Source of the DNA: Phycisphaera sp.
GTDB lineage: Bacteria > Planctomycetota > Phycisphaerae > Phycisphaerales > Phycisphaeraceae
Direction of reading: 5' to 3'
Assembly: GCA_016125215.1 (NCBI GenBank)
Contig: WGMF01000045.1
Span: forward strand, 1 to 58,994
DNA length: 58,994 bases
The notes under the pieces are model-generated. The model ran no database searches and was not told where the DNA came from. It saw only the letters and a program-made list of their open reading frames with translations. The translations under genes and the position numbers were made by a program. Positions 232-27,317 of the stretch are shown here, piece by piece. How positions within the stretch are numbered: the first letter of the stretch is position 1; every line of letters starts with the position of its first letter.

Positions 232-768
232 TCACAAAGGGTCCATCGAAGGCCCGGACAAGAGATCACCCGCATACCATCGGGCACTGGACCATTTCCA
301 ATCCGTTGGTGTTTTCACCAGCCCGCGTCGCACAGGGTTGTTGTGGATGTAATCGATCTTCTCAAAACTCTCGTGGTCGCTGACGATGTTGCGGTCGTAC
401 CCGCCGCCGGCCTGCCAGAATCGGGTGACGCCGCGGGGGTCGGTGATCTTCTGAAGGATCGGGGCATTGATCTCCCACCAGCGCCCGATGACCTGTTGCG
501 CAAAACGGGCCTTGAGGGTGTTGAGAATCTTTTCGACGGTCAGGTCAACCGATGCTGTCTGGAGTAACAGGTGGACATGTTCGGGCATGAAGACCCACGC
601 ATAGAGGCGGAAGTTCTGTTTGGATTTGAGGTAGGTCAGACGCTCGACCAGCAGGTCCCTGATGCGGTCATTGTTGAGCAGTGGCAATCGGTGGTAGCAG
701 GAGAACGTCAGGTACCGCCCGTGTCCCGGGTGTTCGATCCGGCGGAGGAGACGGCGGGGTGATGACAT
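232..768 (-). CDS. REP-associated tyrosine transposase (RAYT, Y1_Tnp family)
   Basis: The 178-residue product is a single-domain HUH endonuclease of the IS200/IS605-like RAYT type. These enzymes nick single-stranded REP hairpins. The HUH motif is in MPEHVHLLL (His64, His66). The candidate catalytic tyrosine is Tyr124 in GGGYDRNI, and the family-typical YIHNNPVRRGLV follows. Length and motif order fit an intact enzyme. It stands alone, without IS ends or an accessory gene. Palindromes with shared arms flank it on both sides (178-208, 847-877, 1088-1118), as expected for a RAYT and its non-autonomous REP substrates. The family assignment rests on motifs; the link to these particular palindromes is inferred from proximity. 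Confidence 0.9.
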   Translation of the reverse strand: MSSPRRLLRRIEHPGHGRYLTFSCYHRLPLLNNDRIRDLLVERLTYLKSKQNFRLYAWVFMPEHVHLLLQTASVDLTVEKILNTLKARFAQQVIGRWWEINAPILQKITDPRGVTRFWQAGGGYDRNIVSDHESFEKIDYIHNNPVRRGLVKTPTDWKWSSARWYAGDLLSGPSMDPL

Positions 769-846
769 GGGTCGAGGTTAATGATTAGTTATGGAGCACG
801 CAATCGGCACGAAACACATGGCGGCCTTCGCCGGGGTGCGGGGTGC

Positions 847-24705: not shown

Positions 24706-26370
24706 ATGGCTGCACACTCACAAACACACCGGGGGCGGTCGAACGGCTTTACGCTCATCGAGCTGGTCGCGGCGTCGGCGATCCTGGCGATCGTCATGGC
24801 GGCGATGGCCTCGACGATGCTCTTGGCCAGCAAGGCGCTGCCCAGCGGTGACGACGTCTCGGTCCGCACCCTGCGCGCCAGCCGATGGGTCGACACGTTT
24901 GCCACGGAACTGGAGACCGCTCAGCGCATCATCAGCCACGACGCGGGGTCGATCACGTTTGTGGTGCCCGACCGCAACGGCGATGGGTACGGCCAGCGCG
25001 TGGCTTACACGTGGTCGTCGAGCAAAAAGACCTTGAGCCGAGGCCTCAACAACGCTGCGCCGAGCGTCATCCTCTCGGACGTGGACGCGTTTTCACTGAC
25101 ATGCCAGTACGCCAGCGCCACGGAACTCTACCCGGGCGTCGGTGTCGAGCAGGCGACCGATTCGCTCTTGATGACGATGGGCGACACCAGCGGCACCGCG
25201 GGCTCGACGATCAACAGCACCAACTGGGTGGCGCAGTACGTCAGCCCGACGATCAGCGCCTCGGCCATGACGTGGCGGCCGACGAAGGTCCGCTTCCAGG
25301 CCAAGGCCCTGCTTATCGCCTCCCCGATTGCGGTCCAGCTCCGCACGGCAACCACGACACTCTCGCCCTCGAATACGGTGCTCGATGAGCAGACGCTCCT
25401 CGGCTCCGTGTTGAGCTTGTTGAGTTACGGCTGGCAGCAGGCCACGTTCAACACCGTCCCCGCTCTCACGCCCGACACACCATTGACAATTGTCTGGCAA
25501 CCCTCGGGGCTAGTGAACTCCGCGTCGATCCTCACCGACACCAACACAGGAAGCGGGCTTGTCACCACATCAAACAGCGGCTCGTCGTGGAGCTACCAGA
25601 GCAACCAGAGCGTCGTGTGCGAGGTCTACGGCCGAATCACCACCCCCGGCGCGTCGCAACTTATCGAGAGGCGGTACCTCAAGTCTGTCACCCTCGAGAT
25701 GCGCACCGGCGGCTCGGACCTTACCCGGACACGGACCACCGTCCACACCTACAACACGCCTGAATTGCTCACCGACGGATGGTCCACGGACTTCACTTCG
25801 GACCCGACTAAGGCTGACCTCGACGCGGACGGCAACAAGGATTGGATACTCATGAATCGAGGCGCCAAGACCAATTGGTCGAACAGCGCCACGCCGTGGA
25901 CCGCGGGCGACGACCAGTGGCTGACCACGAACGGGAACAAGGACTTCACGCACCTCACGATCATCGATGTCACCATGAGGGACACGGTCTACGACGCGGG
26001 GGATAGTGGCGCGACCGCGGAAATCTACTACGACCGCTCGGGGAACAGTGTGGCCCGCATCCTCGCGCAGGTCCGCATGGAAAAAGACGGCACGCAGACC
26101 CTCACGCTCAACCACAACACCACCGCCACCACCGTCACCCCGCTGGCGATCTACCCGATGCTCACGGGTGATCCTGTCCAGCTACGCCTCGTGCTCGACC
26201 CCACCCACGACAGCGTCGCGCTCTTCAAGGATGGCGTCCACAAGGGCACTTTTGCCTACGCCCGACCCAACTCGCCCGGCGACAACGGACGCTACGCACG
26301 CTTCGGCTCGGTGGGGCTGGGGGCTGCGTTCTCATCGATCTCGATCCTGCACACGGAGGTCACGCCGTGA
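24706..26370 (+). CDS. Large GspJ-like pseudopilin with a C-terminal extension
   Basis: A 554-residue protein, far longer than usual GspJ (about 200). The signal is NGFTLIELVAASAILAIV, with the cut after Gly14. The first 150 or so residues look GspJ-like (ASRWVDTFATELETAQRI). The rest is Thr/Ser/Asn-rich beta sequence, ending in LRLVLDPTHDSVALFKDGVHK and then AAFSSISILHTEVTP. That last part recalls a LamG/concanavalin-like ligand domain. It starts 1 base after the GspH stop. A tip pseudopilin with a binding module is one reading. Confidence 0.82.
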   Translation: MAAHSQTHRGRSNGFTLIELVAASAILAIVMAAMASTMLLASKALPSGDDVSVRTLRASRWVDTFATELETAQRIISHDAGSITFVVPDRNGDGYGQRVAYTWSSSKKTLSRGLNNAAPSVILSDVDAFSLTCQYASATELYPGVGVEQATDSLLMTMGDTSGTAGSTINSTNWVAQYVSPTISASAMTWRPTKVRFQAKALLIASPIAVQLRTATTTLSPSNTVLDEQTLLGSVLSLLSYGWQQATFNTVPALTPDTPLTIVWQPSGLVNSASILTDTNTGSGLVTTSNSGSSWSYQSNQSVVCEVYGRITTPGASQLIERRYLKSVTLEMRTGGSDLTRTRTTVHTYNTPELLTDGWSTDFTSDPTKADLDADGNKDWILMNRGAKTNWSNSATPWTAGDDQWLTTNGNKDFTHLTIIDVTMRDTVYDAGDSGATAEIYYDRSGNSVARILAQVRMEKDGTQTLTLNHNTTATTVTPLAIYPMLTGDPVQLRLVLDPTHDSVALFKDGVHKGTFAYARPNSPGDNGRYARFGSVGLGAAFSSISILHTEVTP

Positions 26371-27317
26371 GGCTTGCAATGAAGCACGAGACTCGTGTGC
26401 CACTGACGGCTTGCCCGCCGGTGCAAGCATCTCCATTCAAAACTCTGGCGGGCGAGCCGCCAGTGGCACCCCTTGTGGTCCAGCCGACCGCCTCAGTGGA
26501 TTCAAACTTCCGGGGGGGGTTCACGTTGGTTGAGGCTGTGGTGAGTCTGGTGGTGGTCGGCGTCATGATGGCGGCGGCGATGAACCTTGTCGGCGGGGCG
26601 AGGATGACACTCGCCAGGAGCACCGACCGCGCACGCGGAACCCAGCTTGCCATGGACCTGATGAGCGAGGTCCTCCAGAAAGATTACGAAGAACCCAACG
26701 GCACCCCCGCGTTCGGCAGGGAGGCCGACGAGAGTGCGTCTAATCGGGCGCTGTACGACGACGTGGACGACTATCAAGGCTGGAATGAATCGCCGATCAA
26801 AGACCGCACCGGGCGTGCCGTCGAGAGTTTCACGGGCTGGTCACGCGGTGTGACGGTCGAGCCGATGAAGCTCGGCGCGACGAGCCTGACTTCATCCGAC
26901 GCCTCGGTGGCGGATATCAAACGCATCACCGTGACGGTGAAGAAGGGCAATTTGCAGGTGGCATCCCTCACCGCTTACCGGGCGCGTTCCTGGGTAAGCA
27001 CGCTGCCCGGGGGCGCGGGCGTCGAGGGCAACCACGCCCCCGTGGCCGTCGCGTGGGCAAGCGACTTGCGCCCGACGGTCAACACCGCGGTGGCCTTCGA
27101 CGGCGCGGCCTCCACCGACCCCGACGGCGACGCGATGGCCTATCACTGGGACTTTGGCGACGGATCGACAGCGGCCTCGGCCACGGCAAGCCACGCTTAC
27201 AGCACGGCCGGTCAATACACGGTGAATTTCACGGTCACAGACTCCCACGGCGGTGTCGACACGCAGAGCCTGGTGGTGAGTGTGACCCTGGTGGACCTCA
27301 ACTTGGTGGTGAACTAG
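26367..27317 (+). CDS. GspI-like pseudopilin fused to a PKD domain
   Basis: A 316-residue product. The GTG start overlaps the upstream TGA. After a 50-residue leader comes RGGFTLVEAVVSLVVVGVMM, a class III signal with Glu at +5. The minor-pilin body runs to about 210. A C-terminal PKD domain (about 225-310) shows FDGAASTDPDGDAMAYHWDFGDGS and YTVNFTVTDSHGG, the usual immunoglobulin-like fold of secreted polysaccharide-binding proteins. The leader is odd: it is encoded by a 23-nt-arm inverted repeat (26397-26469) followed by the AACTTCCGGGGG motif ending one codon before the cut site. Confidence 0.82.
   Translation: MRLAMKHETRVPLTACPPVQASPFKTLAGEPPVAPLVVQPTASVDSNFRGGFTLVEAVVSLVVVGVMMAAAMNLVGGARMTLARSTDRARGTQLAMDLMSEVLQKDYEEPNGTPAFGREADESASNRALYDDVDDYQGWNESPIKDRTGRAVESFTGWSRGVTVEPMKLGATSLTSSDASVADIKRITVTVKKGNLQVASLTAYRARSWVSTLPGGAGVEGNHAPVAVAWASDLRPTVNTAVAFDGAASTDPDGDAMAYHWDFGDGSTAASATASHAYSTAGQYTVNFTVTDSHGGVDTQSLVVSVTLVDLNLVVN
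26397..26469. repeat. Palindrome inserted in the leader of a pseudopilin gene
   Basis: Arms of 23 nt (26397-26419 and 26447-26469) match as an inverted repeat with two mismatches, around a 27-base loop. The arms contain GTGCCACTG and GCCCGCC. The element is in frame and supplies about 24 residues of the leader peptide, with no stop codons. Confidence 0.8.

Follow-up and report, generated by a model that had tools for sequence, protein, structure and literature searches.

Why should a long palindrome lie between the start codon and the prepilin cleavage site of a pseudopilin-like gene, and is it read there as protein? The question is raised by a gene in the 58,994-nt stretch of DNA that we analysed (the window), for which a preliminary description had proposed that a mobile palindrome is tolerated in a part of the protein that prepilin peptidase removes. 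The relevant features are:

232-777, reverse strand: open frame for a Y1 (IS200-like) transposase that by eye resembles the one on contig C53 (see below)
24706-26370, forward strand: pilin-like upstream gene (N_methyl), its TGA overlapping GTG 26367
26355-26360, forward strand: Shine-Dalgarno sequence GGAGGT, 6 nt ahead of GTG 26367
26367-27317, forward strand: pseudopilin-like gene (N_methyl and PKD), with a GTG start overlapping the upstream stop (GTGA)
26367-26519, forward strand: leader of 51 codons, predicted prepilin cleavage falling between Gly (codon ending at 26519) and Phe (26520)
26397-26469, no strand assigned: REPIN-like palindromic doublet of 73 nt, arms at 26397-26419 and 26447-26469
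26401-26423, forward strand: REP unit 1
26443-26465, reverse strand: REP unit 2, inverted
26496-26498, forward strand: rival GTG start, which would give an 8-codon leader
26505-26516, forward strand: copy of the dispersed 12-mer AACTTCCGGGGG

The window gene, its start and its leader

From GTG 26367 the reading frame is open through the palindrome to a prepilin site (SNFRGG/FTLVE), and the protein matches Pfam N_methyl (1.2e-5, residues 49-72), with the type IV prepilin-like features of a G/F cleavage site, E5 and a hydrophobic helix. The neighbourhood is a pilus/secretion-type cluster (PilM_2, PilN, GspH and more N_methyl proteins), and the window's own genome holds three matches to Peptidase_A24 (prepilin peptidase). 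At E up to 10, the N_methyl prepilin motif matches this genome 70 times, and 64 of the matches are above the Pfam cut-off.

The 23-nt arms of the palindrome pair at 21 of 23 positions (91% complementary) around a 27-nt loop, which bears out the earlier account of an in-frame inverted repeat with two mismatches. The long leader of that account also stands, at 51 codons including the start rather than the 50 residues given. Palindrome and motif, which had been said to form the leader, both lie inside it but do not make up the whole, as the palindrome comes after the first 10 codons, and a gap of about 12 codons lies between it and the motif. Coding log-odds for the three parts of the leader were -1.9, -7.8 and -0.1, as compared with +20.7 for the next 60 mature codons, and gene calling with a codon model set the start of the gene at 26538, not 26367.

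We surveyed orthologous leaders at 94 loci (L031-L044 and L098-L177, the latter being the best 80 of 274 relatives; L045-L060 were left out), from which 15 loci without a recognisable cleavage motif and 5 duplicates were removed, leaving 74 distinct orthologues. In 51 of the 74, start and upstream stop overlap with an identical -1 offset, and a Shine-Dalgarno match of at least 4 nt was found in 32 of these 51 coupled orthologues. Their leaders measure 6-52 codons (median 16), with 41 under 30 codons and 10 of 34-52 codons. When the gap from upstream stop to cleavage site was counted independently of the choice of start, it reached 100 nt or more in 14 of 73 orthologues; 11 of these 14 are in frame, and 10 combine start codon, frame and open reading, two of the ten (L166 and L168) being near relatives. 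Judged from the sequence, the window leader is probably translated from GTG 26367. A leader protein conserved in relatives without a palindrome, which the preliminary description had named as evidence against its proposal, was not seen. We could thus rule out a conserved leader that merely looks palindromic, because neither the sequence nor the length of the leader is conserved among the orthologues.

A repeat family in the window's own genome

Within the window, the arm pattern (up to 3 mismatches) has two matches where 0.01 are expected from 100 shuffles. Across the window's own genome (4.04 Mb, 58 contigs), we found 162 arm half-sites at the same tolerance (85 + 77) and 41 complete inverted doublets, the reversed control giving 0 for both; the shuffles and the genome copies rule out a chance palindrome. 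The doublets are laid out as GTGC-CACTGGCGGCTTGYCCGCCAGTG-spacer-mirror image over 72-75 nt and have the characters of REPINs, namely an inverted REP pair with a short spacer, present in many, over-represented copies. None has diverged as far as the window copy, which has 4 arm substitutions; the other 40 have 0-2. According to codon-model gene calls, 33 doublets lie between genes, 6 partially so and 2 inside genes; a search for the same palindrome between genes elsewhere, which had been suggested at the outset, thus found it there. All six frames of the REP arms are free of stop codons, which is also true of 52% of shuffled arms. At up to 1 mismatch, the REP core occurs in 8 of the 41 genomes searched, own genome included, a patchy spread with 133 copies in the own genome, 91 in G024, 56 in G037 and 1-21 in the five others.

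Two further in-frame REPINs were observed outside leaders. One (L200, 2405-2477; contig C33, about 119.7 kb) lies within a cytidylyltransferase-like gene whose frame matches CTP_transf_3 (2.4e-23), the model aligning with residues 1-83, ahead of the insert. The other (L195, 2458-2530) is at the C-terminus of a long gene and codes for its last residues.

Seven Y1_Tnp matches were found in the genome, six of them above the cut-off. An open frame on contig C53 (PF01797 Y1_Tnp, 1.2e-5) has the same REPs on both sides in opposite orientation (880-906, forward, and 1523-1549, reverse), a layout as in a RAYT gene, and is putatively RAYT-type. No REPs were seen near the six other Y1 places (3-6 kb checked at each), nor near the Y1 frame of the window within its first 4 kb. 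There being one genome per species, no movement was seen; we regard the term "mobile palindrome" as well founded because of the 41 full doublets and the REP-flanked transposase gene, and the palindrome is probably mobile.

The recurrent motif had been reported to end beside the cleavage site, and it does so, coding for N-F-R-G directly ahead of the cleavage Gly. It is a separate dispersed repeat that is not leader-specific, and the copy at the cleavage site is one among many. The window has 18 copies of the exact 10-mer CTTCCGGGGG, nine on each strand, and 49 of a looser 11-mer (up to 2 mismatches) as compared with 35.8 expected. In the own genome, AACTTCCGGGGG has 185 exact copies, sometimes in tandem, against 1 for the reversed control. 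It is present in 26 of the 41 genomes, with 164 copies in G006, 122 in G015, 253 in G016, 40-42 in G014 and G002, and 0-19 in the rest. A 280-kb sample of the own genome, non-random in that it was taken around the window, REPs and transposases, has 18 exact copies; 4 are intergenic and 14 lie within called genes, in every phase and on either strand. This dispersal rules out the motif as part of the palindromic element. When the 220 nt ahead of the cleavage site were compared for 69 of the 70 N_methyl matches, only the window gene had a shorter form, AACTTCCGGGG. The motif has more the look of a dispersed recognition word, at a guess of the uptake or repair type, than of a leader element.

Repeats in other prepilin leaders

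A co-directional gene follows 24 of the doublets in the own genome, and in 21 of these the upstream gene is co-directional too. A coupled, in-frame, open read-through of the doublet occurs in 4/4 prepilin-class genes vs 0/20 others, three of these 20 having no upstream co-directional gene in reach. The four are the window gene, GspG (T2SSG, 1.1e-32), GspK (T2SSK_1st, 3.9e-15) and a Tad-like prepilin (7.8e-5). When single and degenerate REPs were added (77 clusters and 41 pairs, within the genome stretches examined), the comparison became 4/4 vs 4/37; Fisher p values are ~9e-5 for the former and ~7e-4 for the latter, the prepilin class having been assigned after the sequences were seen. The four coupled non-prepilin cases are a cytochrome-like protein with a lipoprotein signal, a protein with a Sec-like signal (signals judged by eye) and two that look non-coding. 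No pilin-type Pfam match was found among the 37 non-prepilin genes, 8 of which had no match of any kind. At L353 and L196 (contigs C16 and C30), in-frame REPs were observed before an apparent Sec signal peptide and an apparent lipoprotein signal peptide, respectively.

A general nearness of REPs to pilin genes is ruled out, as a REP lies within 220 nt of only 3 of 69 N_methyl matches (of 70), these being the window gene, GspG and one uncoupled gene on contig C36.

In the window gene, GspG and the Tad-like gene, a rival start is possible at a GTG or TTG that follows the doublet or lies at its end. In GspK the last ATG, GTG or TTG sits in the first REP arm, so any translation of the gene has to include the spacer and the second arm. 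GspH (PF12019, 3.5e-5), whose ATG overlaps the GspG stop, has a leader with a second palindromic doublet family (CCCCTCCC..GGGAGGGG type; at least 115 matching pieces in the own genome, both palindrome strands counted), and since a TTG lies within its second palindrome, part of it would be coding from either start. GspI and GspJ of the same operon have leaders of 8 and 7 codons without repeats. These Gsp genes belong to a single type II secretion operon (L188; contig C13, 66-69 kb), which has palindromes in the leaders of GspG, GspH and GspK.

Other repeats occupy the same place in relatives. The L036 leader contains 34-nt inverted arrays of CGGGTAT units, that of L104 31-nt inverted heptamer arrays, and those of L035 and L105 other repeats, all four multi-copy in their own genomes by whole-genome BLAST. 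Leader-matching pieces number at least 142 in G006, 65 in G041 and 43 in G012, other leaders of the joined query included, and the G044 leader has several among the matches listed, one at 96% (E 1e-17); these copy numbers are lower bounds, with 33-40 candidates scored per genome and both palindrome strands counted. Among the BLAST matches listed, 120-nt segments of the mature part mostly matched only themselves, besides weak matches. Three other long coupled leaders (L034, L137 and L140) likewise gave only self-matches at E < 1e-5, and no repeat was found in them.

No possible start follows the repeat in L035, L104 or L105, and the only one in L036 is a TTG ahead of the second array. In L035, L104 and L105, as in GspK, the repeat is translated if the gene is, because no ATG, GTG or TTG comes after it. 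L109, grouped with L104 and L105 in a supported clade, has a homologous GTGA site and a leader of 15 codons vs 45 and 39 in these two, and by its sequence appears to be in effect an empty site. The tree, of the 51 rows with -1 overlap and with many forks unsupported, gave a change count of 3 vs a shuffled mean of 2.7, which is uninformative on independence. Palindromes are also present in the leaders of L166 and L168 (Desulfuromonadaceae); G042 contains two more partial copies of them, and a good rival start follows the repeat. A second prepilin at one locus (L112, in the genome of G006) was also seen to have a 35-codon leader, with an inverted array of ATGGCAG-like heptamers.

How the palindrome may have come to be tolerated

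We consider it probable that the palindrome is an in-frame REPIN-like insertion, translated within a coupled leader and removed by prepilin peptidase; here we infer the translation start, the cleavage, the mobility and the removal of the leader as the reason for tolerance. A non-autonomous REPIN-like doublet, for whose movement a RAYT-type Y1 transposase is the probable agent, would have entered a pseudopilin gene, translationally coupled to its upstream neighbour, in the stretch that codes for the leader. The insertion would have kept the frame, ribosomes would read through it to make a 51-residue leader, and prepilin peptidase would cut at GG/FTLVE and discard that leader; the mature pilin would be unchanged because the leader is cut off. 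Other prepilin genes of the own genome may have followed the same course, and so may those of relatives, with different repeats. The original proposal is thus upheld by the 41 doublets, the REP-flanked transposase and the parallel leaders in several genes.

An unlikely alternative is that the palindrome is an ordinary intergenic REPIN, the frame through it being open by chance and translation restarting at GTG 26496 to give a normal 8-residue leader (MDSNFRGG/FTLVE). Most doublets (33/41) do lie between called genes, the window leader lacks codon bias, 11 of 24 doublet pairs are open by chance, and many N-terminal REPs elsewhere were judged extragenic in the portions of PMC3733652 consulted. 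However, no Shine-Dalgarno sequence was found before GTG 26496, whereas a strong one and a conserved overlap mark the start at 26367; the frame is kept in 10 of the 14 long-gap orthologues; and the absence of any start after the repeat in GspK, L035, L104 and L105 speaks against a restart. It is far less probable that the palindrome persists because of a function in the mRNA, its hairpin tuning coupling or stability between the two pilin genes with the coding frame incidental. The fold predicted for the whole window leader is strong (-72.5 kcal/mol, z = -3.2), and the consulted portions of the same paper consider REPs as possible RNA elements between co-directional genes, but the palindrome is not conserved, the large majority of coupled leaders are short, and different lineages hold different repeats at the same place. 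We give almost no credence to a long leader that is itself a selected protein feature (for targeting or delayed processing) and palindromic by happenstance: leaders are long in several lineages, in three of which no repeat was found, yet neither their sequence nor their length is visibly conserved, and the leader repeats are the genome-wide repeats.

An insertion that is translated and then removed may be part of something wider. Because the coupled start lies upstream and proteolytic removal follows downstream, an insertion need only keep the frame, and cleavable prepilin leaders, perhaps export leaders generally, could form a recurrent safe harbour for mobile palindromic repeats, a suggestion that we hold to be evenly balanced. 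It would cover, in the own genome, five prepilin leaders with two repeat families and possibly a lipoprotein and a Sec signal peptide, and, with other repeats, other planctomycetes and possibly a Desulfuromonadaceae lineage. In G024, which is rich in the same REPIN (at least 46 doublets in 51 stretches), 33 pairs included no coupled case, and one pair concerned a pilin. Palindromes in coupled prepilin leaders of relatives were not significantly more frequent than in other coupled genes (6/116 vs 2/91, p = 0.47; with a looser cut-off 6 vs 3, p = 0.73), the control set itself containing GspK-like prepilins and one of the two control matches being prepilin-like by eye. The rule is thus supported in the own genome and in individual relatives, but not yet as a general enrichment.

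REPINs with RAYT transposases have been described in extragenic space (Bertels & Rainey 2011, PMC3116915). As set out in the consulted sections of that paper, they resemble the present family in the inverted REP doublet, short variable spacer, many copies, predicted hairpin and REP-flanked Y1 gene; unlike them, some copies here are apparently read in frame within cleavable leaders. In-frame palindromes in genes are already known. Dimers of GTAG/CGTC REPs inside open reading frames code for 20-30 residues, N-termini included, and Planctomycetes are named among REP hosts (PMC3733652). The examples in the parts of that paper at hand stress DNA synthesis and repair genes and include no prepilin leaders, and our doublets have GTGC as their outer tag. 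Rickettsia palindromic elements, of about 150 bp and with a conserved peptide, occur in varied genes (review PMC10969869); from what the review states in the passages used, they are likewise palindromic repeats tolerated in frame inside proteins, but the present element is 72-75 nt long and lies in a part that is predicted to be removed. The open-access literature gave no account of prepilin leaders with REP or palindromic insertions; the recurrent use of cleaved prepilin leaders is the part for which we found no precedent in print.

In the usual view, REPs are intergenic, and N-terminal copies are often ascribed to mis-called starts. The cases described here suggest a simple rule, that mobile DNA can enter proteins in peptides that get removed. 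If true, this would explain odd long prepilin leaders and would warn gene callers against trimming them; throw-away leaders may let repeats settle inside genes without harm.
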